This document shows positions 31,906 to 41,493 of a stretch of DNA of 56,836 bases, one piece after another. A program made the position numbers and the translations under genes. The DNA comes from Verrucomicrobiota bacterium (lineage in GTDB: Bacteria > Verrucomicrobiota > Verrucomicrobiia > Chthoniobacterales > Terrimicrobiaceae): positions 1 to 56,836 of the forward strand of contig JAGWWS010000019.1 of the NCBI GenBank assembly GCA_018970255.1, in the 5' to 3' direction. Every line of letters begins with the position of its first letter. Within the stretch, counting starts at the first letter, position 1. The notes under the pieces are model-generated. The model saw only the letters and a list, made by a program, of their open reading frames with translations, ran no database searches and was not told the DNA's origin.

Positions 31906-33393
31906 ATGTGGATACTCCCAAGACCATTACACACATCGGGCTTTGTGCCGGATATGGCGGCATTGAACTTGGACTCCACCGATTTATCCGAAATCTGCGC
32001 ACGGTCGCTCTTTGTGAGATCGAAGCCTTCGCCTGCGCGAACTTGGTCGCAAAAATGGAAGCGGGACTCTTGGACCCGGCACCTCTCTGGACGGATATTA
32101 AAACCTTCCCATGCGAGGAGTTTCGAGACCGGGTGGGCCTGCTTGTGGCCGGTTATCCCTGCCAGCCCTTCAGCGCGGCCGGCAAGCGGCTCGGAGCCGA
32201 AGACCCCCGCCACCTCTGGCCACACATCTTGGGAGCAATCCGAATTATTCGCCCCCGACTCTGTTTCTTCGAAAATGTCGAGGGACACATTAGCCTGGGA
32301 CTGCGCGAAGTCCTCGGAGACTTGGGAGCAGCAGGTTACACGGCGGCGTGGGGAATATTCTCTGCGAGTGAAGTCGGCGCGCCGCATCAGCGGAAGCGGG
32401 TCTTCATCTTGGCCTACCGCAACGAGTCAGGATGGCAAGCAAGGTGGCATAACGCCATATCAAGCCAATGGCGGCAACCACACGAACTTGCTGCATGTGG
32501 CGGCGATCAAGGAGGAGCAGAAGAATTGGCCTACCGCAAATGCGAGGGACTGGAAAGATTCTATAACGGGAACACATCCGCCGAGCCGTCCGAACATGTC
32601 GGAGCAGACGCTTGGACAAGCGGTGAGTGTGGTCCATGGCCAAGCCGCCCCGGCGAACAGCAGCACGCATGGGAGCCGCCAAGGGTTGTGGGAGCCGTCC
32701 CAGCAAAACTGGCAAACTTTTGCTCACGGGACTCACAACAGGGGCGAGACACCGCACAGGCAGGTGGTGAGAGCATTAGTGCATGGAGAAAAAACGAAGA
32801 CGCAATGCCTCACAGTAGATCAAGTGTTTGCGGAGGAGATCAAGGGGACGAACAAGCAATGGGGAACTCCATCATGCATGGACACGCTTCCGGCGAGATC
32901 ACCGGAGGCACTGGCGCGGGCGAAGGAAAAGGGCGGGTGCAAAAACCTTCGGGAGGAAGTGGTGCAATGGGCAACGCCTCGCAGCGGCAAGACCACGGAC
33001 GAGAATCCAGAGACTTGGGCCTTGCGGCAGGAGAAGGGCGATGTGGCAACGATGCCGTTGACGGCACAAGTGAAGGCATGGGCAACGCCACAGAGCCGCG
33101 ATGCGAATGGAGCAGAGGGCCGAATGATTCGGGATGGCCACCTCCCGAGCCAAACGGAAGTTGCACCCACGGGGCAATGGAATCGAAACAACGGCAAACT
33201 CAACCCCCGCTGGGTCGAGACGCTGATGGGCCTGCCGATTGGGTGGACTATGCCGAGCTGTGTGTCTCCTGTGACAATCGCACCGATGAACTCCGCCTCC
33301 TCGGCAACGGAGTCGTCCCCGCCACCGCAGCAAGAGCTTTTCGAGTGCTTTGGCATGAACTCATCAACCAATGAAAACCCTTCCCGTGGATAA
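31906..33393 (+). CDS. Overlapping +1 frame over methyltransferase locus 1
   Basis: An unbroken 495-codon frame from ATG 31906, directly after the preceding stop, covering the whole methyltransferase gene. It holds W(P/A)TPxxxD-type repeats (SWPTATSQD, NWPTANARD, QWATPRSG, AWATPQSRD) and LNPRWVETLMGLPIGWT near the end. I recall such phrases from recognition regions of phage cytosine methyltransferases. A 30-residue segment matches the +1 frame of the locus at 40.5 kb at 20 of 30 positions. Whether it is translated, alone or through frameshifting, is not known. Confidence 0.45.
   Translation: MWILPRPLHTSGFVPDMAALNLDSTDLSEICARSLFVRSKPSPARTWSQKWKRDSWTRHLSGRILKPSHARSFETGWACLWPVIPASPSARPASGSEPKTPATSGHTSWEQSELFAPDSVSSKMSRDTLAWDCAKSSETWEQQVTRRRGEYSLRVKSARRISGSGSSSWPTATSQDGKQGGITPYQANGGNHTNLLHVAAIKEEQKNWPTANARDWKDSITGTHPPSRPNMSEQTLGQAVSVVHGQAAPANSSTHGSRQGLWEPSQQNWQTFAHGTHNRGETPHRQVVRALVHGEKTKTQCLTVDQVFAEEIKGTNKQWGTPSCMDTLPARSPEALARAKEKGGCKNLREEVVQWATPRSGKTTDENPETWALRQEKGDVATMPLTAQVKAWATPQSRDANGAEGRMIRDGHLPSQTEVAPTGQWNRNNGKLNPRWVETLMGLPIGWTMPSCVSPVTIAPMNSASSATESSPPPQQELFECFGMNSSTNENPSRG
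31908..33374 (+). CDS. C5-cytosine DNA methyltransferase, locus 1
   Basis: 488 residues from GTG 31908. The catalytic half has all motifs in order: AGYGG (I), PCQPFS with the nucleophile Cys (84-89, IV), FFENV (about 121-125, VI), GAPHQRKRVFILAY (VIII). Motif X (LLGNGVVPATAARAF) is at the far C-terminus. The 170-460 region, where target recognition should lie, is Gly/Gln/Ser-rich and low in hydrophobics, unusual for a folded domain. The +1 frame over the same DNA is open throughout and looks more like a recognition domain. Confidence 0.85.
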   Translation: MDTPKTITHIGLCAGYGGIELGLHRFIRNLRTVALCEIEAFACANLVAKMEAGLLDPAPLWTDIKTFPCEEFRDRVGLLVAGYPCQPFSAAGKRLGAEDPRHLWPHILGAIRIIRPRLCFFENVEGHISLGLREVLGDLGAAGYTAAWGIFSASEVGAPHQRKRVFILAYRNESGWQARWHNAISSQWRQPHELAACGGDQGGAEELAYRKCEGLERFYNGNTSAEPSEHVGADAWTSGECGPWPSRPGEQQHAWEPPRVVGAVPAKLANFCSRDSQQGRDTAQAGGESISAWRKNEDAMPHSRSSVCGGDQGDEQAMGNSIMHGHASGEITGGTGAGEGKGRVQKPSGGSGAMGNASQRQDHGRESRDLGLAAGEGRCGNDAVDGTSEGMGNATEPRCEWSRGPNDSGWPPPEPNGSCTHGAMESKQRQTQPPLGRDADGPADWVDYAELCVSCDNRTDELRLLGNGVVPATAARAFRVLWHELINQ

Positions 33394-33661
33394 ACCGTGC
33401 AAAACGCACAACCCCCCGGCAAACGCCGGGTGGCAGGGGCTGGCCGGCTCAAGCAACAGCCAGCCCCTGCGCGGGAAACCCGACCCCTTCTTCATCGGCG
33501 AGGGCGATACCAGGCGCTGCCCACAATGCTCCGGCTCCGGCACCCGCGGCCACGGCATCGGCCACTTCGGAGATTGCAATGGCGACGCCGGCGAGGCCTG
33601 GAAACCCGCCCGCTCCCTCTGCCCCACATGCTACGGCCGCGGCGTCATGCCCGCACTGTGA
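33371..33661 (+). CDS. Small zinc-ribbon protein
   Basis: 96 residues. CPQCSGSG and CPTCYGRG are two CxxCxGxG units of the DnaJ zinc-finger kind, separated by a His-rich loop. The N-terminus is unstructured. ATGA coupled to the methyltransferase. Could bind nucleic acid or act as a chaperone fragment. Confidence 0.6.
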   Translation: MKTLPVDKPCKTHNPPANAGWQGLAGSSNSQPLRGKPDPFFIGEGDTRRCPQCSGSGTRGHGIGHFGDCNGDAGEAWKPARSLCPTCYGRGVMPAL

Positions 33662-33678
33662 CAACCCACCCCTGACTT

Positions 33679-34131
33679 ATGGCTGAATGGATTAAAATGG
33701 AACTCCACCTCCCCGAAAAACCCGAGGTGCTACAAATCGCCGAAGCGACCAAAATGGACCCCGACCTCGTCGTCGGGAAGCTCTTCAAAATCTGGGGCTG
33801 GGCCACCCGGAATTGTAACGCTGACGGCGTTACACATATTGCAGCACTTTCGCATTTGAACATTTTGGCCGGTCATTCCGGCTTCGCGGAAAGCATGGTG
33901 GAAGCAGGGTGGTTGCGCATCAAAGATGCCAAAATCACCTTCCCGAACTTCGACCGCCATTGCAGCCAAACAGCTAAAGAGCGGGCACTTATATCAAGGC
34001 GCGTCGCCAAGCACCGCTGTAACGGAAGTGTAACGGAAATGAAACGCCCCGACCGTTACAAAAGCGTTACCAGAATAGATAAGAATAGGAGCGGGGGCGG
34101 TGCCCCCGCCGCAGCCCCCTCCTGCCTATGA
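33679..34131 (+). CDS. Replisome-organiser-like protein, copy 1
   Basis: 150 residues. The N-terminal winged-helix-like domain (EWIKMELHLPEKPEVLQIAE, DPDLVVGKLFKIWGWA, AGWLRI, FPNFDRH) is of the kind found in phage replication initiators. The C-terminus is short and basic. It is a clear paralogue of 39062-39778. The coding DNA carries GTAACG/CGTTAC iterons, and the DnaB gene follows with ATGA overlap, as expected for a lambda O-like origin-binding protein. Confidence 0.7.
   Translation: MAEWIKMELHLPEKPEVLQIAEATKMDPDLVVGKLFKIWGWATRNCNADGVTHIAALSHLNILAGHSGFAESMVEAGWLRIKDAKITFPNFDRHCSQTAKERALISRRVAKHRCNGSVTEMKRPDRYKSVTRIDKNRSGGGAPAAAPSCL
33815..34070. other. Candidate replication origin 1 (GTAACG iterons)
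   Basis: GTAACG at 33815, 34019 and 34030, and CGTTAC at 33828, 34054 and 34065. The first pair makes an inverted repeat around CTGACGG. Four copies cluster within 52 bases and are followed by an A/G-rich stretch (AATAGATAAGAATAGGAG). Lambda has its origin inside gene O in the same way. Confidence 0.6.
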
Positions 34132-35414
34132 CCATGGCCCAAGAAAACATCATTCCCATGGCGCGCGCCATCCCCGCGAGCGAAACGAGCGAGCGATCCG
34201 CCATCTCCTGCCTGCTCCAGAATTTCAACCTCCTCAACGCCACCACCTGGCCGGAGGAACTTTTCCTCAACCCCAGGCACCGCACGATCCTCTCCGCCAT
34301 CAAGGAACTCCATGCCGAAGGAACGAAAACCGACTTCTTCGCCGTCCAATCCCTCCTCGAAGGCGCCAACCTCCTCGACAGCGTCGGCGGCCACCACGGG
34401 CTCACGGACATCCTCACCGTCATGCCCACCGGAGACCCCGGTATCGCCGAGTGGCACCGCAAGACCCTGGTGGACGCCGCCCGCTACCGCCGCGCCCTCG
34501 CCACCGTGCGCGAAGCCGAAGAGGGCCTCATCCGCCAGGAAGCCGATATCGCCGCCCTCTCGCTCGCCCTCGCAGAGACCGCCGCCCTCGCAGACAAGCC
34601 CCGCGCCTCCACCAGCGAACTCATCGGCAAACTCACCGAGGAACTCGAGCGCCGCGAACCCGCCGAAGCCTTCGGCACAGGCATCCCCGCCCTCGACCGC
34701 GCCACCACCGGCGGGGTCAAGCGCGGCGAACTCCTCACCATCGCAGCCCCCACCTCCGGCGGCAAATCCATCCTCCTCGCCCAGCTCGCCCTCCACTCCC
34801 TCCTCGCCGGCAAGCGCGTCGTTTTTTTCTCCCTCGAAATGTCCGCCACCCAGGTCATCGCCCGCCTCCTCTCCTCCATGTGCGGGTTCAACATCCACGC
34901 CCTCCGCGCCTCGAAGCCCGACCCGAAAGCCGCCCACCTCCTCCCCCAATTCATCTCCGCAGCCACCAAGCTCTCGAAGCTCCCCCTCCAAGTCGAGTCC
35001 GGCTTCACAGACATCGAGTCCATCGACTCTTCCACCCGCGAACTGCACGCGAAGGGCAAGTGCGACCTCGCCATCGTCGACTACATCCAGCTCGTCCACC
35101 TCCGCGCCCTCGGCGCCAACGAAACCCGCGAACAGCATGTCAGCGAGATCACCAAGCGCCTCAAAGCCCTCGCCCTCCAGCTCAACATCGCCACCGCCAC
35201 AGCCAGCCAACTCAACGACGAAGGCAAGCTCCGCGAATCCCGCGCCATAGGCCACCACTCCGACCATGTCTGGCTCATCTCCCACACGGACGAAAGCGCC
35301 TGGATCGCCGTTGAAAAAAACCGCGACGGCGAGCGCGGCCTCTCCATCCCCGCCACCATGCGCGGCGCCACCTCCCAGTTCGTCGAACTCACCCAAAAAA
35401 CACCCACACCATGA
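34128..35414 (+). CDS. dnaB: Replicative DNA helicase, DnaB family
   Basis: 428 residues, normal length. The N-terminal domain starts at about 20 (SERSAISCLLQNFNLLN). The RecA-like motor has Walker A APTSGGKS (207-214), FFSLEMSA, and Walker B LAIVDYIQL (314-322). NIATATASQLN and RESRAIGHHSDHVWLI include later motifs. It unwinds the fork as a hexamer. An internal ATG at 34134 is an alternative start. Confidence 0.9.
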   Translation: MTMAQENIIPMARAIPASETSERSAISCLLQNFNLLNATTWPEELFLNPRHRTILSAIKELHAEGTKTDFFAVQSLLEGANLLDSVGGHHGLTDILTVMPTGDPGIAEWHRKTLVDAARYRRALATVREAEEGLIRQEADIAALSLALAETAALADKPRASTSELIGKLTEELERREPAEAFGTGIPALDRATTGGVKRGELLTIAAPTSGGKSILLAQLALHSLLAGKRVVFFSLEMSATQVIARLLSSMCGFNIHALRASKPDPKAAHLLPQFISAATKLSKLPLQVESGFTDIESIDSSTRELHAKGKCDLAIVDYIQLVHLRALGANETREQHVSEITKRLKALALQLNIATATASQLNDEGKLRESRAIGHHSDHVWLISHTDESAWIAVEKNRDGERGLSIPATMRGATSQFVELTQKTPTP

Positions 35415-35842
35415 AACTCCACATCGGCATCGACCCCGGACTCTCCGGCGGCATCGCATTCATCCCAGCCATCGGCAACCCATGGGCGCACAAAATGCCC
35501 GAGACCGACCGCGACCTCATCGACCTCCTCCGGGATTCCATCTCCCTGCACGAACCCACAGCCCTCATCGAACTGGTCCATTCTTCGCCCCAGATGGGCG
35601 TTAAAAGCGCTTTTACCTTCGGAGAAGGGTATGGGCGCATCCAAGCCACCCTCACCGCGCTGGCGGTCCCCTACGAGCGCGTGCGCCCCGCCGCTTGGCA
35701 GAAAGCCATGGGCTGCCTCACCCGCGGCGACAAGAATGTCAGCAAACGCCGCGCCCAGGAACTCTTCCCCACCCTCCGCATCACCCATTCCATCGCGGAT
35801 GCCCTCCTCATCGCAGAATTCTCCCGCCGCTCCCGCCCATGA
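35411..35842 (+). CDS. RuvC-like Holliday junction resolvase
   Basis: 143 residues. The RNase H-fold begins IGIDPGLSGG (first Asp). Glu lies in ALIELVHS and the final Asp in SIADALLIAEF. FTFGEGYGRIQATL matches phage RuvC-type proteins. It should cut recombination or replication junctions. Coupled to the helicase gene. Confidence 0.8.
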   Translation: MKLHIGIDPGLSGGIAFIPAIGNPWAHKMPETDRDLIDLLRDSISLHEPTALIELVHSSPQMGVKSAFTFGEGYGRIQATLTALAVPYERVRPAAWQKAMGCLTRGDKNVSKRRAQELFPTLRITHSIADALLIAEFSRRSRP

Positions 35843-36075
35843 AAACCCCCCGCCCCTACGACGAAAAAGGATGCCGCTCCCTCATGTGCGCCCTCGTCCT
35901 CAGCGCCGTCGAAGACGCAAACATCCGCACCGACTACAAACTCGCCACCCGCAACGCCGAGAACCTCCTACACCAGCAAACCGCCATCGAATTCCTCCGA
36001 TCCCCGCTTTTCCGATCCTTCTGCACAAATTTCCGACTCCCCGCCGATAAAATCCTGCGCGCCGCTTTCAAATGA
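35839..36075 (+). CDS. Small hypothetical protein
   Basis: 78 residues, helical (CRSLMCALVLSAVEDANIRT; NAENLLHQQTAIEFLRSPLF). Not recognised. ATGA overlaps on both sides tie it to the resolvase and the next HTH gene. Confidence 0.55.
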   Translation: MKTPRPYDEKGCRSLMCALVLSAVEDANIRTDYKLATRNAENLLHQQTAIEFLRSPLFRSFCTNFRLPADKILRAAFK

Positions 36076-36629
36076 ACCCACACGCCCACCCGACATTCCC
36101 GAACGAATCCGCCCGCCTCTACGCCGCCCACCAGGACGAACCCGCCTACTGGCCAGACATCGCCAGCGAGGTGGACCGCCCAGAAGAAACGCTCGCCGAT
36201 ACCCTCGGCACCACGCCGGCCGTCGCGCTAAAGGTCATGGCCTTGGTCGAATCCGAGGTCCGCAAATCCCAATCCCTCCTCCTCGGGCGCGCCGTCGGCC
36301 TACTCCTCGAAACCAACAACCTCCCCGTCATGGCCCACGCCATCGCATTCGCCGCCGGGCTCGACCAGCTCAACGGCAAACGCTCCCAAGCCCAGGTCGC
36401 CCGCGAGTTGGGCGTCACCCGCGCCCTCGTCTCGCACTATGTCATCGGCGTCCGCGATGTCCTCTCGGGCAAAGCCAACGCGTTCGACAACACAAAATTC
36501 CGCAAAGCCAACTCCTCCCGCAAGACCTTCAAGGAAAAAGCCATCTCCCCCTTCCTCGCAGCCAAACGCGCCGCCATTGAACGGCGCAAAAACCAAACCA
36601 ACACCACCACCACCACCACATGCAACTAA
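36072..36629 (+). CDS. HTH transcription factor-like protein
   Basis: 185 residues. The centre has a strong helix-turn-helix (RSQAQVARELGVTRALVSHY, about 105-124). The C-terminus is basic. The first half is helical and may be a partner-binding domain. It could be the late-gene activator, being last in the first early block, but that is a guess from place. Confidence 0.65.
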   Translation: MNPHAHPTFPNESARLYAAHQDEPAYWPDIASEVDRPEETLADTLGTTPAVALKVMALVESEVRKSQSLLLGRAVGLLLETNNLPVMAHAIAFAAGLDQLNGKRSQAQVARELGVTRALVSHYVIGVRDVLSGKANAFDNTKFRKANSSRKTFKEKAISPFLAAKRAAIERRKNQTNTTTTTTCN

Positions 36630-37045
36630 TCGACACCAGCACATTCACCACCGAAACCGTCAACATCCCCGAGAACTGCACAATGCACGACTGGATGCAG
36701 ATCCACCGCAGCATCCTCCTCTGCAAGAACGCCGCCTCCAAGTGGCTCGCCCAATCCCGCGCCTACGCCGTCGGCAAATGGGGGAACGAATGGACCGCCG
36801 ACGCCGAAGCCCAACTCGAACTCGACCTCGGTCTCCCCCAGCCAGAAGCCCAACCCTCCCTCAACCCACCCGACAAATCCCGCGGCATCGTGACCATCGA
36901 GGGGCTGTCCCAGAAGTTCGAACTCTGGCAGCGCAAAATGGAAGACGAGATCACCACCTGGGACACCGACCGCCTCAACCGCGCCCTCGAACTTCTTACC
37001 CCATTCGAAGCCCAGGCCGCGCGCATCCGGTCCTTGCTTGGATGA
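36620..37045 (+). CDS. Hypothetical protein
   Basis: 141 residues. The middle (ILLCKNAASKWLAQSRAYAV, GKWGNEWTADAEAQLELDLG) is helical and the C-terminus (WDTDRLNRALELLTPFEAQA) likewise. Function unknown. It overlaps its neighbours by 10 and 4 bases. Confidence 0.55.
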   Translation: MQLIDTSTFTTETVNIPENCTMHDWMQIHRSILLCKNAASKWLAQSRAYAVGKWGNEWTADAEAQLELDLGLPQPEAQPSLNPPDKSRGIVTIEGLSQKFELWQRKMEDEITTWDTDRLNRALELLTPFEAQAARIRSLLG

Positions 37046-37308
37046 GCGACACACCGGAAACAGACGCCAAAGCCAGCGACATCATCGGCTTCTTCAGTTG
37101 CGCCACCGTGCCAGCCGAATTCGCCCGCAACCTGGAGCGTGAACGCGACGAGGCGATCCGTCAGCGGGATGAAACAAACAGGTCTTCCAAATACGCTTGT
37201 GACTACAACTATGAGCAGAAATTAAAGGCAGAGCGCGAGCGCGACGAGGCGAGGGCAACGCGGGATTTCATTCCTAGTTGTCATGCGCGGCGACATCTCG
37301 CGGTTTGA
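37042..37308 (+). CDS. TPETD/ERERDEAR coiled-coil protein 1
   Basis: 88 residues. It opens MSDTPETDAKA, then VPAEFARNLERERDEAIRQR, and a second ERERDEARATRD. The family pattern (TPETD head, an aromatic/acidic middle, VxxDFARRLERERDEAR) recurs at 37347 and 38440. Function unknown; I recall similar genes in other metagenomic phages. The C-terminus (FIPSCHARRHLAV) departs from the pattern. Confidence 0.6.
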   Translation: MSDTPETDAKASDIIGFFSCATVPAEFARNLERERDEAIRQRDETNRSSKYACDYNYEQKLKAERERDEARATRDFIPSCHARRHLAV

Positions 37309-37346
37309 AGAAGGAGAAAAACAAGACAAAAAGAAAAAATAAATAG

Positions 37347-38153
37347 ATGAACACAGACACACCAGAAACAGATAAAGAGCGCCACGAAGCGCGGGCGCGA
37401 GTCGAAATAATTACGCCCAATGAAAATAATCCCGTAGCGGAGTATTTTTCATCACCCAACACACCAGAGACGGATGCTCGCGCCTATAAATTTAATGATG
37501 AAGACGGCGTCCATTGCGAGGCGGTTCATGCCGATTTCGCCCGCCGCCTTGAGCGCGAACGCGACGAGGCAAGGGAAGCTATTCATATTGCTGAAAGCCT
37601 TATTAAACCGCAAATTGAACGCGAGCAAGTCACACCAGAGGCAAAGCCGGACAACGACAAGCAGCGTGACATGACCGCATTGTTGAGGCTTCTGCGAGAA
37701 GTTAGGCGCGAGCGTGACGAGGCGAGGAATGAGTTGGAAGACTACAAGGCTTCGACAATTCATAGTTGCAATGAAGAATGCAAACGCCCCATGTGCGTGT
37801 TGCGCCGCCAACGACGCGAAGCGCGTGAGGATGCCGAGCATTGGAAGACTGAATACCTAATCGTCGCTGCGCGCCTGTGTGGAAAGAAGCATCCCCGTGA
37901 CAACGGAATCATTTCTGAACATGAAATCATTCCAAAGCTAGAGCGAGAGCGCGACGAGGCGCGGGAAAAAGCCGAACGCTATCGACTTGAAGCAAATGCC
38001 ATGATGCTTCAGCGCGACGAACTAAAGAAAATCGTAGAGCAACGCATCTTGGTCGGCGCTGAAATTCACAACAAGGCGAACGCAATGGATGATTATTTGG
38101 CAAACAAACAAACAAACAACCATCCGCTATATGGAGGAGATTCACTATTATGA
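37347..38153 (+). CDS. TPETD/ERERDEAR coiled-coil protein 2
   Basis: 268 residues with two TPETD heads (residues 4 and 44) and several ERERDEAR or RRERDEARNELEDY units, so it looks like tandem fused copies. A Cys/His knot (HSCNEECKRPMCVLRR) interrupts the coiled coil. The gene is more AT-rich than most of the region. A purine-rich leader (AGAAGGAGA) lies about 35 bases before the start. Confidence 0.6.
   Translation: MNTDTPETDKERHEARARVEIITPNENNPVAEYFSSPNTPETDARAYKFNDEDGVHCEAVHADFARRLERERDEAREAIHIAESLIKPQIEREQVTPEAKPDNDKQRDMTALLRLLREVRRERDEARNELEDYKASTIHSCNEECKRPMCVLRRQRREAREDAEHWKTEYLIVAARLCGKKHPRDNGIISEHEIIPKLERERDEAREKAERYRLEANAMMLQRDELKKIVEQRILVGAEIHNKANAMDDYLANKQTNNHPLYGGDSLL
37711..37809 (+). 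repeat. 99-base direct repeat, copy 1
   Basis: Encodes ERDEARNELEDYKAS and HSCNEECKRPMCVLRR. It differs from copy 2 (38587-38685) at about four positions, two or three of them altering the protein. This is a recent duplication or gene conversion between family members. Confidence 0.85.
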
Positions 38154-38443
38154 CAAATGAGCAAATCAACATCGCCATCGCGGAGGCGTGCGGTTGGAAG
38201 CCCGACAAGCGGGGGCTTGGATGGCTAAATGGGGGCGGCTACTATGACGAACTCCCCGACTACCTCACCGACCTGAACGCCATGCACGAGGCGGAGGAAC
38301 ATTTGCGCGGACATCAATTTCAGCGATACGCCGAAATGCTGGATGACATAATCGGAAGCCTTGGAGGAATCCGAGCCACCGCCCGTCAACGCGCCGAGGC
38401 GTTTCTTAGGACATTAGGCAAGTGGAAGGAGGGCGCGAAATGA
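38150..38443 (+). CDS. Hypothetical protein (small phage ABA-type)
   Basis: 97 residues: MTNEQINIAIAEACGWKPDK, then GGYYDELPDYLTDLNAMHEA and a helical end (ARQRAEAFLRTLGKW). This resembles the small proteins with ELPDYLNDLNAM that accompany TPETD genes in other phages, from memory. Coupled by ATGA to both neighbours. Confidence 0.6.
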   Translation: MTNEQINIAIAEACGWKPDKRGLGWLNGGGYYDELPDYLTDLNAMHEAEEHLRGHQFQRYAEMLDDIIGSLGGIRATARQRAEAFLRTLGKWKEGAK

Positions 38444-38778
38444 ACTTCGGGGAACTCATTTTAAATGAACCGCTAGTTAAGTGTTTTGCATCGACAACCC
38501 CGGAAACAGATTCTGAAACAAACTATTGCGACGCAATTCCGGATATGCCGTGGGTGGATGTAGATGTGGCCCGCCGATTGGAGCGCGAGCGAGACGAGGC
38601 GAGGAATGAGTTGGAAGACTACAAGGCTTCAACAGTCCATAGTTGCAATGAAGAATGCAAACGCCCCATGTGCGTGTTGCGCCGCGAGCGCGACGAGGCG
38701 AGGGAAATGGTGAAGCAGGTTTGCAAAAGCCAGTTTGGCACCGATGTGACATTCCTGCCAAAGGAGGACGACCAATGA
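38440..38778 (+). CDS. TPETD/ERERDEAR coiled-coil protein 3
   Basis: 112 residues. TTPETDSETNYC is followed by DVDVARRLERERDEARNELE and the same HSCNEECKRPMC knot as the gene at 37347. The C-terminus (MVKQVCKSQFGTDVTFLPKE) is its own. Start taken at ATG 38440, which overlaps the previous stop. Confidence 0.6.
   Translation: MNFGELILNEPLVKCFASTTPETDSETNYCDAIPDMPWVDVDVARRLERERDEARNELEDYKASTVHSCNEECKRPMCVLRRERDEAREMVKQVCKSQFGTDVTFLPKEDDQ
38587..38685 (+). repeat. 99-base direct repeat, copy 2
   Basis: Second copy of the sequence at 37711-37809, about 96 percent identical by eye, in the same reading phase in both genes. Confidence 0.85.
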
Positions 38779-39062
38779 CCGGCGAGGAACTGCGCGACGA
38801 GGGGATCGAGCGCGTGGATGGGGTCGCCGGGGCTTGGAAGGAGGCCGCGGATGCGATGATTGCCGCGCTGGCCGCGGGCGGGCGGGAGTTTTCCGCCGAA
38901 GACCTGCGGGCGTGGGTGGGCGATCCGCCGCACCCGAATGCCCTTGGGGCGCGGTTCATGGCGGCGATCCGGAGCCGGCGCATCCAGCGCGTCGGCTGGA
39001 AACACGCCACGCGGGCCAGCGCCCATGCGAGGGCTTTGGCGGTTTACCGGGGGGCGTTTTAA
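38775..39062 (+). CDS. Phage winged-helix-like protein
   Basis: 95 residues. MTGEELRDEGIERV then AGGREFSAEDLRAWVGDPPH and ALGARFMAAIRSRRIQRVGW read as a small winged helix. Similar proteins are common before replication genes in other phages. From this gene on, the sense strand becomes much richer in G, marking a change of origin although ATGA coupling to the preceding gene is kept. Confidence 0.65.
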   Translation: MTGEELRDEGIERVDGVAGAWKEAADAMIAALAAGGREFSAEDLRAWVGDPPHPNALGARFMAAIRSRRIQRVGWKHATRASAHARALAVYRGAF

Positions 39063-39778
39063 TGGCTGGCGATTGGATCAAGGTGGAACACGCCACGCCC
39101 GACAAGCCGGAGGTTTACACCATGGCCGCGGACTTGGGGATCGACCCCGACGCCGTGGTCGGCAAGCTCGTCCGGTTTTGGATTTGGTGCGACCAGCAAT
39201 CGATTTCCGGTAACGCTCTCACCGTTACAGATTCCGTTCTCGACCGTATCACCCACCAGCCTGGTTTCTCCGATGCGCTCCGCAAGGTCGCCTGGCTTGA
39301 AGTCCGCTCCGGCTCGCTTCAAGTCCCGCGCTTTGATCGGCACAACGGTCAAACTTCCAAGGCCCGTGCGGTTTGCAACAGGCGAGTCGCGGAACACCGT
39401 AACAAATGTAACGCCCCGAGCGTTACAAATGTAACGCCGCAAGCGTTAGAAAAACCGTTACCAGAGAAGAGAAGAGAAGAGAAGAGTAGTTCTTCCTCTA
39501 ACGAGGAAGAAGGGGCGGCGGTCCCGGTCAACCTCCAGACGCCGGCATTTGCCGCGGCTTGGGAGGCGTGGTTCGCCTACCGGAAATCGGCCAAGCTGAA
39601 GCGGCTCGCCCCGGTTTCCATCGCGCAGCAACTGAAAAAGCTGGGCGAGATGGGCCACGACCAGGCAATCGCCGCGATCAACGAGAGCATCGCGAACGGC
39701 TGGCACGGCATCTTCCCGCCGAAAACCAAAATGCCGGAGGCGGCTCCGGCGCAACAACAGGAGGTCGAAAAATGGTAG
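39062..39778 (+). CDS. Replisome-organiser-like protein, copy 2
   Basis: 238 residues. The N-terminal domain (DWIKVEHATPDKPEVYTMAA, DPDAVVGKLVRFWIWC, VAWLEVRS, VPRFDRH) is paralogous to 33679-34131. A Ser/Glu-rich linker follows, then a C-terminal domain (FAAAWEAWFAYRKSAKLKRL) of the type that recruits helicase. The gene carries the same GTAACG iterons. Its stop overlaps the DnaC-like gene. Confidence 0.75.
   Translation: MAGDWIKVEHATPDKPEVYTMAADLGIDPDAVVGKLVRFWIWCDQQSISGNALTVTDSVLDRITHQPGFSDALRKVAWLEVRSGSLQVPRFDRHNGQTSKARAVCNRRVAEHRNKCNAPSVTNVTPQALEKPLPEKRREEKSSSSSNEEEGAAVPVNLQTPAFAAAWEAWFAYRKSAKLKRLAPVSIAQQLKKLGEMGHDQAIAAINESIANGWHGIFPPKTKMPEAAPAQQQEVEKW
39210..39486. other. Candidate replication origin 2 (GTAACG iterons)
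   Basis: GTAACG at 39210, 39408 and 39431, and CGTTAC at 39223, 39421 and 39456, plus near-copies GTAACA (39399) and CGTTAG (39444). The cluster at 39399-39461 is followed by a purine tract of GAGAA repeats (39463-39486). Layout and position within the gene match candidate origin 1. Confidence 0.65.
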
Positions 39779-40503
39779 CGAATGCAGTTTTGACTGATAC
39801 CGAGCCTGTTATCGAGGTGGGCGCGTGCAGCGAGTGCTTCACGCCCATGCGGACCGAGGTCATATCGTTCCTCGGGCGGCGCTTGGACTACGCGGTGCTG
39901 TGCGAATGTTGCCAGCGCCGTTTGACCTCCGAACGCGAAGCGGAAGAAGCCCGCAACCGCGCAGGGAGGCTCGCCAAGGCATTCGACGCGATGTGTCCGC
40001 CACTCTACCGCGAAAGCGACCCGCAGCGCCTTGCAGGGGCGTTCCTGCGCGAAAGCGAGGCATGGGAGTTTTCGCCCGAGGGGCTGGGGTTCATCGGGGC
40101 CGCAGGGACCGGGAAGACCCGGTGCGCGTGGCGGCTGCTCCGGCGACTGCATTTCGCCGGGAGGCGGGTCTACGGGCTGACGGCGACCGCCTACGCGAAG
40201 GCGTGCGCGGACCAGTTCCACGACGCCCCGGAGGTGAAGGCCGGCGCCGAGGCGGTGCTGGGCCGGTGCCGCCGGGTGGAGGTGCTGCTCCTCGATGACA
40301 TGGGCAAGCAGCGGTTCACCGAGCGGGCCGAGATGGAACTCTTCGCGCTGCTGGAGGAGCGGACGGGCAACCTCCTGCCGACGATCTGGACGGCGAACGC
40401 CGAGAAGGGCGACCTCAAAAAAATGCTGTCGCCCGACCGCGCCGAGCCGCTCATCCGCCGGCTCGTGGAATTCACCAAGGTGGTGAGGGGAGAAGACAAG
40501 TGA
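39772..40503 (+). CDS. DnaC-like helicase loader
   Basis: 243 residues. A Cys pair region (CSECFTP; CECCQRR) forms a zinc-like N-terminus. The AAA+ core has Walker A GAAGTGKTR (109-117) and Walker B VLLLDDMGK (171-179). IWTANAEKGDLKKML would include sensor I. It should load DnaB at origin 2. The ATG overlaps the organiser stop. The 14-base motif TTTTGACTGATACC lies inside codons 6-10. Confidence 0.85.
   Translation: MVANAVLTDTEPVIEVGACSECFTPMRTEVISFLGRRLDYAVLCECCQRRLTSEREAEEARNRAGRLAKAFDAMCPPLYRESDPQRLAGAFLRESEAWEFSPEGLGFIGAAGTGKTRCAWRLLRRLHFAGRRVYGLTATAYAKACADQFHDAPEVKAGAEAVLGRCRRVEVLLLDDMGKQRFTERAEMELFALLEERTGNLLPTIWTANAEKGDLKKMLSPDRAEPLIRRLVEFTKVVRGEDK
39788..39801 (+). promoter_or_regulatory. 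TTTTGACTGATACC motif, copy 1
   Basis: Exact 14-base copy inside the start of the DnaC-like gene. The same string is found at 41484, 43182 and 48667, and inverted at 45135. Confidence 0.5.
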
Positions 40504-41489
40504 ATGGAGCTTTTTACAATGACATCGACCCCAAAGCCTGCGCCTGGCTGCGCGAACTCATCGCCGGGGGACACATCGCCCCCGGCACCGTGGACAACCG
40601 CAGCATCGCCGACATCGACCCCGGGGAACTCCGCGAATTCACCCAAGTCCACTTTTTCGCTGGAATCGGAGGCTGGTCCCTCGCCCTGCGCTGGGCGGGC
40701 TGGCCCGACGACCGCCCCGTCTGGACCGGCTCATGTCCCTGTCAGCCGCTTTCGTGCGCGGGACAGCGAAAAGGCCATGCCGACGAACGACACCTGTGGC
40801 CCGCTTTTTACTCTCTCATCGCCGAGTGCCAGCCTCCAGTTGTCTTTGGAGAGCAGGTTGCGAGCAAGGATGGGCGCGAATGGCTCGCCGGAGTTCGCGC
40901 TGACTTGGAAGGAATTGGATATGCCCTCGGGGCCGCCGATCTGTGCGCTGCGGGCGTCGGAGCGCCGCACCGCAGGCAAAGGCTGTTCTGGGCTGGTGCA
41001 TTGGTCAACGCCCACGGTGCAAGACAGCGCGAACAACGCCGGGCCGTCGCAGTTCGAGAGAAACACACACCCGCTGAATGTGCAGGCAGCGCTTTCGGGT
41101 TGGCCGACGCCGCAGGAGGACAATGCGAACAACGCCTATGGCCATGCGGGGACGCAATTCAGCAACCTGCCGACCACGGCGCAACTGGCGGGCTGGGCGA
41201 CACCGAACACCATGGACTCCCTGCCGATCCGCAGCGACGAGGCGCTGGCCAGGTCGAAGGCGAAAGCGGGCTGCGCGAACCTCAAGGACCAAATCCCGGT
41301 TGGCCCGGTTGGGGGCGGTTTGAAACCATCTATTGCCGGGACGGAAAAACGCGCCGCTTTGAACCCGGCTCATTCCCGCTGGCTCATGGGATACCCGGCC
41401 GCGTGGGACTCCTGCGGGGCTACGGCAATGCAATTGTCCCGCAAGTCGCCGCCGAATTCATCAACGCCTTCCAAAAAACAAAGTTTTGA
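40500..41489 (+). CDS. C5-cytosine DNA methyltransferase, locus 2
   Basis: 329 residues from GTG 40500 (GTGA overlap with the loader gene). The first 45 residues are an extra phage-type start (DPKACAWLRELIAGGHIAPG). Then HFFAGIGGWS (I), CPCQPLS (79-85, IV), FGEQV (VI, Asn changed to Gln), GAPHRRQRLFWAGA (VIII) and GYGNAIVPQVAAEFI (X). The middle is Gly/Gln/His/Ala-rich. The +1 frame is open over the entire gene. Confidence 0.85.
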   Translation: MNGAFYNDIDPKACAWLRELIAGGHIAPGTVDNRSIADIDPGELREFTQVHFFAGIGGWSLALRWAGWPDDRPVWTGSCPCQPLSCAGQRKGHADERHLWPAFYSLIAECQPPVVFGEQVASKDGREWLAGVRADLEGIGYALGAADLCAAGVGAPHRRQRLFWAGALVNAHGARQREQRRAVAVREKHTPAECAGSAFGLADAAGGQCEQRLWPCGDAIQQPADHGATGGLGDTEHHGLPADPQRRGAGQVEGESGLREPQGPNPGWPGWGRFETIYCRDGKTRRFEPGSFPLAHGIPGRVGLLRGYGNAIVPQVAAEFINAFQKTKF

Positions 41490-41493
41490 CTGA
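40504..41493 (+). CDS. Overlapping +1 frame over methyltransferase locus 2
   Basis: An unbroken 329-codon frame from ATG 40504. Its second half has WSTPTVQDS, GWPTPQEDN, GWATPNTMDSLPIRS and LNPAHSRWLMGYPAAW, matching the pattern of the +1 frame at locus 1. The first half is Ser/Pro/Thr-rich and looks like shadow coding. Either the frame is translated, or it preserves an ancestral recognition domain now read out of phase. Confidence 0.45.
   Translation: MELFTMTSTPKPAPGCANSSPGDTSPPAPWTTAASPTSTPGNSANSPKSTFSLESEAGPSPCAGRAGPTTAPSGPAHVPVSRFRARDSEKAMPTNDTCGPLFTLSSPSASLQLSLESRLRARMGANGSPEFALTWKELDMPSGPPICALRASERRTAGKGCSGLVHWSTPTVQDSANNAGPSQFERNTHPLNVQAALSGWPTPQEDNANNAYGHAGTQFSNLPTTAQLAGWATPNTMDSLPIRSDEALARSKAKAGCANLKDQIPVGPVGGGLKPSIAGTEKRAALNPAHSRWLMGYPAAWDSCGATAMQLSRKSPPNSSTPSKKQSFD

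Follow-up and report, generated by a model that had tools for sequence, protein, structure and literature searches.

Two almost fully overlapping reading frames probably encode a split C5-cytosine methyltransferase at two phage loci on a verrucomicrobial contig

In C5-cytosine methyltransferases of the M.HhaI type, all motifs and the recognition domain lie in one chain. The beta subunit of M.EcoHK31I is reported to be encoded in another frame inside alpha. Passages of PMC3404938 present M.EcoHK31I (YGGCCR) as a two-polypeptide C5 methyltransferase with motifs I to VIII and X in the larger subunit and motif IX in the smaller, and M.AquI (CYCGRG) as a two-polypeptide enzyme split between catalytic and recognition parts, the smaller subunit holding motifs IX and X. 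Here we describe two loci in a stretch of 56,836 nucleotides (nt) from a Verrucomicrobiota bacterium (GenBank assembly GCA_018970255.1, contig JAGWWS010000019.1, positions 1 to 56,836 of the forward strand; herein the window). At each, a methyltransferase frame (alpha) is overlapped by a long open reading frame at +1 (beta). Judged from sequence comparison, the probability is about 0.82 that each locus encodes a split C5-cytosine methyltransferase whose two genes, in frames 0 and +1, overlap almost completely and are initiated separately. The features of the two loci are as follows.

31908..33374, + strand: alpha 1, C5-cytosine methyltransferase frame; GTG start, 488 amino acids, motifs I to VIII and X
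31906..33393, + strand: beta 1, open reading frame in the +1 frame; ATG start, 495 amino acids, five WxTP/WxTA units and a motif IX-like segment
32400..33246, + strand: recognition region of locus 1, bounded by the ends of alpha motif VIII and of the beta motif IX-like segment; beta selected, alpha kept open
32860..32961, + strand: recognition unit of locus 1, common to locus 2 (WGTPSCMDTLPARSPEALARAKEKGGCKNL and on)
33199..33246, + strand: motif IX-like segment of beta 1, LNPRWVETLMGLPIGW
33303..33317, + strand: motif X (GNGVV) of alpha 1, in the alpha frame
40500..41489, + strand: alpha 2, C5-cytosine methyltransferase frame; GTG start, 329 amino acids, motifs I to VIII and X
40504..41493, + strand: beta 2, open reading frame in the +1 frame; ATG start, 329 amino acids
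41194..41295, + strand: recognition unit of locus 2, common to locus 1 (WATPNTMDSLPIRSDEALARSKAKAGCANL and on)
41359..41406, + strand: motif IX-like segment of beta 2, LNPAHSRWLMGYPAAW

Both alphas exceed the Pfam cut-off for PF00145 (alpha 1, expect value (E) 3.9e-31 over residues 9-188; alpha 2, E 1.1e-14) and match phrog_363 (E 2e-55 and 5.9e-78, respectively). The catalytic-lobe motifs I, IV (PCQ), VI and VIII are present in each, with ENV in alpha 1 and GEQV in alpha 2. The betas match phrog_1008 (beta 1, E 5.8e-21, best stretch residues 84-218; beta 2, E 3.6e-22, residues 42-313); at neither locus does beta match a Pfam model above cut-off (best DUF4379, E 0.054) or an NCBIfam model. The beta stop lies 19 bases past the alpha stop at locus 1 and 4 bases past it at locus 2. 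A weak match of phrog_1008 to the motif X region of alpha 1 was also seen (residues 442-483, E 3.9e-4); a different arrangement may be among the members of this family.

The selected frame changes along the gene. The 225 loci that we assembled come from viral-contig scans with the four frames one by one, from five phage records and from the window itself (two loci); because two of the four scans gave only their best 80 matches, the set leans to closer relatives. Forty of the loci are near-duplicates, and 185 are distinct at 98.5% identity. We paired distinct loci, using each once, and scored substitutions by codon position in the 44 pairs that differ by 1.5-12%. Alpha third positions take 59% of the changes in the catalytic lobe; beta third positions take 63% in the recognition region and 86% in the motif IX-like segment; and alpha third positions again take 69% in the stretch to motif X. 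In flanking genes, 62% of changes fall at third positions. Naive ratios of nonsynonymous to synonymous substitution rates (dN/dS; 67 pairs of distinct loci) for alpha, beta and the third frame are 0.22, 1.06 and 1.86 in the catalytic lobe; 1.06, 0.19 and 2.16 in the recognition region; 5.45, 0.06 and 2.52 in the motif IX-like segment; and 0.12, 0.80 and 4.07 in the motif X region. The motif IX-like region was set by a beta pattern, so its values are partly circular, and we place weight on the recognition region and on the alpha-anchored profile described below. The initial annotation of this DNA had pointed to past or present selection on the +1 frame, and the recognition-region values bear this out. 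A codon-based comparison of frame-specific rates across homologues, which it had proposed as the check, gave a lower proportion of nonsynonymous than of synonymous differences (pN<pS) in the +1 frame of the recognition region in 45 of 48 pairs.

Two possible sources of the frame switch other than selection were considered and rejected. Duplicate contigs are not the cause, since the 185 distinct loci gave nearly the same codon-position and dN/dS numbers: with duplicates left in, the percentages for the same four regions are 58, 64, 86 and 69 (52 pairs), and the recognition-region ratios are 0.20 for beta, 1.10 for alpha and 2.04 for the third frame (83 pairs), with pN<pS for beta in 54 of 58. 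Nor is a search bias toward beta, since the switch stayed, with two bins against it, on loci both selected and anchored by alpha. In this profile (39 pairs of alpha-found loci, alpha motifs as the only anchors, identical copies included), selection passes to beta directly after motif VIII and back to alpha ~30 nt upstream of motif X; beta is favored as well in a bin ~420 nt ahead of motif VIII (57% of changes at beta third positions). For locus 1 compared with its eight nearest rows, duplicates included, the fraction at beta third positions is 0.48 in the recognition region and 0.80 in the motif IX-like segment, and 0.72 fall at alpha third positions near motif X. For locus 2 compared with six rows, 17 of the 21 substitutions in the motif IX-like segment are at beta third positions.

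Each frame is also kept open where the other is selected. A codon-shuffle test was run on 81 non-redundant loci (80 distinct) of the 165 in which both motifs were found. Shuffling the synonymous codons of beta in the recognition region predicts an open alpha in 1.5 loci and 422 stops; alpha is open in 81 of 81, with 0 stops. Shuffling the codons of alpha over the 120 codons before motif VIII predicts an open beta in 21.3 loci and 108 stops; 80 of 81 are open, with 3 stops. Stops in the remaining frame are near expectation in both cases (719 against 692, and 305 against 311).

The comparison of the two window loci, from which this work started, fits the same pattern. Over 90 bases, about 20 of 30 residues had been reported as identical in the +1 frames and about 8 of 30 in the methyltransferase frames. 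Counting from the tryptophan codons at 32860 and 41194, we find 20 of 34 in the former, all within the first 30, and 8 of the first 30 (9 of 34 overall) in the latter, so that both figures stand; the start at locus 2 (41194) was placed correctly and that at locus 1, given as 32862, two bases late. The third frames agree at 12 of 34 residues. In the DNA, 59 of the 102 bases agree, and the mismatches number 13 at the first, 10 at the second and 20 at the third codon position of beta. The best ungapped 30-residue match over the whole frames has 20 identities for beta 1 and beta 2 and 16 for alpha 1 and alpha 2; against shuffled beta 2 (n = 300) the mean is 9.5 and the maximum 13. The shared segment is one WxTP unit of beta, and its pattern recurs in 19 of the 225 loci (16 of the 185 distinct), at varying places in the unit order. 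On the scale of whole genes the better-conserved frame differs by region: it is beta in the recognition region and in the motif IX-like segment, and the overall local score of the two loci is higher for alpha (180 against 118) because of the catalytic lobe. The better conservation first noted for the +1 frame extends in the wider comparison to the recognition region and reverses at the N-terminal lobe and motif X. Conservation is thus a division of labor along the gene, not a matter of one frame over the other.

The overlap itself is nearly universal in the locus set. In 224 of the 225 loci, and in all 84 found by alpha queries, the open alpha and beta frames share more than 200 nt and beta is at +1; the beta stop lies a median of 23 nt before the alpha stop. 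The sole locus without overlap (L064, 1-1000) has displaced alpha and beta frames, possibly through an indel or an assembly error. In L136 (3891-5341), one of the 224, alpha stops early and beta continues into alpha-like sequence, probably another displaced frame. A beta profile found 178 bacterial loci; among the best 80 of these the +1 overlap is present in 79, and neither a one-frame alpha-beta fusion nor a stand-alone beta was found. The exception, L283 (Arsenophonus), has short alpha and beta frames with a 29-nt overlap. Of all 305 loci, 2 have a beta that lacks a long overlapping alpha, and in both the frames are displaced or short. The same layout is found in Paenibacillus larvae phages (fetched stretches at 44-45% guanine plus cytosine (GC)) and in phage C75C1 (41% GC). 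The P. larvae phages (L314-L316) are of low GC with a Gram-positive host, and the HB10c2 record names the alpha-frame gene BsuMI methylase subunit YdiP. Among 58 genomes (the window's own and 57 relatives) two have a match, one being the window's own, as expected because this is a phage gene. Annotation in 17 phage records covers both frames in 3 (K1ind2, fTaEco03 and Leyra), beta only in 1 (W5_chr3) and alpha only in 13.

Start codons were counted after loci at least 88% identical had been removed, which left 103 of the 225; 11 without a recognizable motif I were dropped, giving 92. Text patterns divide these into family 1 (n = 42), to which locus 1 of the window belongs, and family 2 (n = 50, of which 42 have an RSI site). 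Of the 42 family-1 loci, 41 have a beta start 2, 5 or 8 nt upstream of the alpha start, compared with 81 of 619 in a within-alpha control. The forms are ATGTG in 25 loci, a start at -5 in 13, GTGTG in 2 and a start at -8 in 1; the single miss is L064, which carries family-2 sequence with displaced frames. At locus 1 the form is ATGTG, the beta 1 ATG overlapping the alpha 1 GTG. The start of locus 2 fits neither family form exactly: it reads GTGAATG, with the beta ATG four bases after the alpha GTG, downstream of GAGGGGAGAAG. In family 2, GGAG is found at the Arg-Ser codons of alpha in 18 of the 42 RSI-site loci, against 5.9 expected from codon use, and a downstream beta ATG is present in 16 of the 18 with GGAG and in 9 of the 24 without (Fisher p 0.0012).

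Matches to motif patterns are also divided between the frames. A family motif IX-like pattern occurs in beta in 150 of the 185 distinct loci and in alpha in 1; the motif X pattern lies near the alpha end in 169 and near the beta end in 1. The beta segment LNPxxxxWLMGYP has the spacing of motif IX, to which it may correspond. AlphaFold models alpha 2 with an ordered, mostly confident N-terminal lobe (10-residue means of the predicted local distance difference test score (pLDDT) mostly 80-96) and with residues 188-271 below pLDDT 50 (10-residue means 30-39 at residues 191-270). The 50 Foldseek matches listed for the alpha model are C5 methyltransferases or complexes with them; M.HhaI aligns over ~190 columns with a template modeling score (TM) of ~0.33. 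By the motif counts, the alpha dN/dS of 1.06 in the recognition region and the pLDDT below 50, alpha does not hold a recognition domain and motif IX in one chain. For the beta model, Foldseek against BFVD gave four matches at E<=0.001 (TM at most 0.25, 28-35% identity), one of them named methyltransferase.

In the arrangement that we propose, alpha would contribute the catalytic lobe with its PCQ loop, plus motif X, and its stretch between motifs VIII and X would be an open, weakly constrained linker. Beta would bring the motif IX-like segment and, as target-recognition repeats, the WxTP units; it would be expected to dock on alpha and read DNA. We infer this last role because beta is selected there, alpha is unfolded there in the AlphaFold model and the WxTP repeats lie in beta. 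In family 1, and similarly at locus 2, the beta ATG (rarely GTG) is placed nearly at the alpha start, and one ribosome-binding site could serve both; in part of family 2, beta may start from an internal Shine-Dalgarno sequence and ATG embedded in alpha codons. The sequences also lead us to infer two stable polypeptides, a heterodimer, methylation, and specificity set by the WxTP units. Such loci likely arose by two compensating frameshifts flanking the recognition domain of a one-frame ancestor.

Several observations weigh against this interpretation. GGAG is missing in 24 of the 42 family-2 loci with an RSI site, and the beta start is not established in those. The strict M.HhaI-like motif IX pattern is found in 0 of 185 alphas and 0 of 185 betas; because it matches neither frame, motif IX in beta rests on the family pattern and its spacing. 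Residues 289-292 and 294-309 of the alpha 2 model, just before and at motif X, are also below pLDDT 50. AlphaFold models beta poorly (mean pLDDT 55, predicted TM (pTM) 0.21), and no solved structure matches the beta profile (one antibody chain at E 0.31). In the alpha-anchored profile, two bins 120-180 nt after motif VIII favor alpha (27 and 34 substitutions), and the recognition region of locus 2 offers 120 alignable sites only, with 10, 3 and 10 substitutions. In the N-terminal lobe beta is little constrained beyond its openness (dN/dS 1.06, against 1.86 in the third frame), and a conservative-change test there weakens with an assumed transition bias. The same test indicates some constraint on alpha in the recognition region (shift 0.65, against 0.17 in flanking genes): its changes there are conservative to a degree that exceeds expectation even when the flanking-gene bias is allowed for, and it gained 0 stops against 33 expected. 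Flanking genes are also short of expected stops (61 against 86; 89 against 135), so the stop avoidance in this test is partly a bias of the method; we take the test as weak support only.

Three other explanations were weighed against the split enzyme. A single polypeptide could be made by two programmed frameshifts, running from the alpha lobe at +1 into the recognition region and back to alpha for motif X, and the selected frame does change in exactly that order along the gene. Such a product would have no need of an alpha open through the recognition region (81 of 81, 1.5 expected), of a beta open upstream of motif VIII (80 of 81, 21 expected) or of beta start codons conserved as they are in 41 of 42 family-1 loci, and we consider it very unlikely. 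Two polypeptides are preferred because a frameshifted fusion would need neither frame's extra openness. We give practically no credence to alpha as the sole protein with the beta frame an accident of base composition. The median GC of the 185 distinct loci, 0.57, would favor long open frames, and Pfam and NCBIfam recognize only alpha above their cut-offs; against this stand the recognition-region dN/dS values (beta 0.19, alpha 1.06, third frame 2.16), the stops that appear as expected in the third frame and the persistence of the beta frame at 41-45% GC. Codon shuffling, the third-frame control and the low-GC phages together rule out base composition as the source of the open beta frame.

Beta might instead be a small protein of its own that acts outside methylation (e.g., as a regulator or anti-restriction factor) and overlaps the methyltransferase by chance. 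The lack of a Pfam domain above cut-off in beta, its poor AlphaFold model and the absence of the strict motif IX pattern from it speak for this alternative. Against it stand a conserved beta segment with the spacing of motif IX that is missing from alpha, an alpha modeled as unfolded between motifs VIII and X, and the rarity of a beta lacking its long alpha partner (the two displaced or short cases among 305 loci); we regard it as unlikely.

Phage genes in the window include those for a DnaB-like helicase (34128), an IstB-like ATPase (39772), a large terminase (43585) and a head-tail connector (45531). One phage here carries two alpha/beta pairs of different families, with one recognition unit in common. 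Between 37098 and 38707 lie small genes with repeats encoding LERERDEAR-like stretches; positions 37706-37828 and 38583-38705 are 90% identical.

A broader generalization, to which we assign roughly even odds, is that phage cytosine methyltransferases include a large class of obligate heterodimers with both subunits encoded by one stretch of ~1 kilobase or more and, in family 1, with starts 2-8 nt apart behind one ribosome-binding site. If so, start choice would set the subunit ratio, exchange of DNA-recognition units would take place in the beta frame with the alpha frame merely kept open, and many proteins now catalogued as whole methyltransferases would represent inactive halves whose recognition stretch has no meaning. 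A methyltransferase named solely from its alpha frame would lack a recognition domain, and assays of alpha alone could be falsely negative. The 185 distinct loci permit direct study of two proteins evolving on one DNA.

Few cellular or large-phage genes are known to overlap on the same strand by about a kilobase with selection on both frames. Among the papers listed in searches of open-licence literature we found no description of the spread of this arrangement in phages, of a frame-by-frame selection map, of a recognition domain in beta or of the near-coincident double start. phrog_363 (alpha) and phrog_1008 (beta), both called DNA methyltransferase and catalogued as separate families, match two frames of the same DNA at both loci. 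The alpha N-terminal lobe and motif order resemble those of single-chain C5 methyltransferases of the M.HhaI type (PF00145), in which one chain holds everything, whereas alpha here is without the recognition domain and motif IX. The nesting of a small subunit in another frame of the large one, reported for M.EcoHK31I, is shared by 224 of 225 loci in our set and by 79 of 80 bacterial loci; motif X is likewise in the large subunit, here at the alpha end in 169 of the 185 distinct loci. As far as passages of PMC3404938 describe it, M.AquI is similarly split between catalytic and recognition parts but holds motifs IX and X together in its small subunit, whereas motif X here stays in alpha. Judged by analogy, the kind is already known from M.EcoHK31I. 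The motif split described there in PMC3404938, alpha with I to VIII and X, is matched here, with a motif IX-like segment in beta; the same passages predict the recognition domain in the larger subunit of M.EcoHK31I, whereas selection at the present loci places it in beta.

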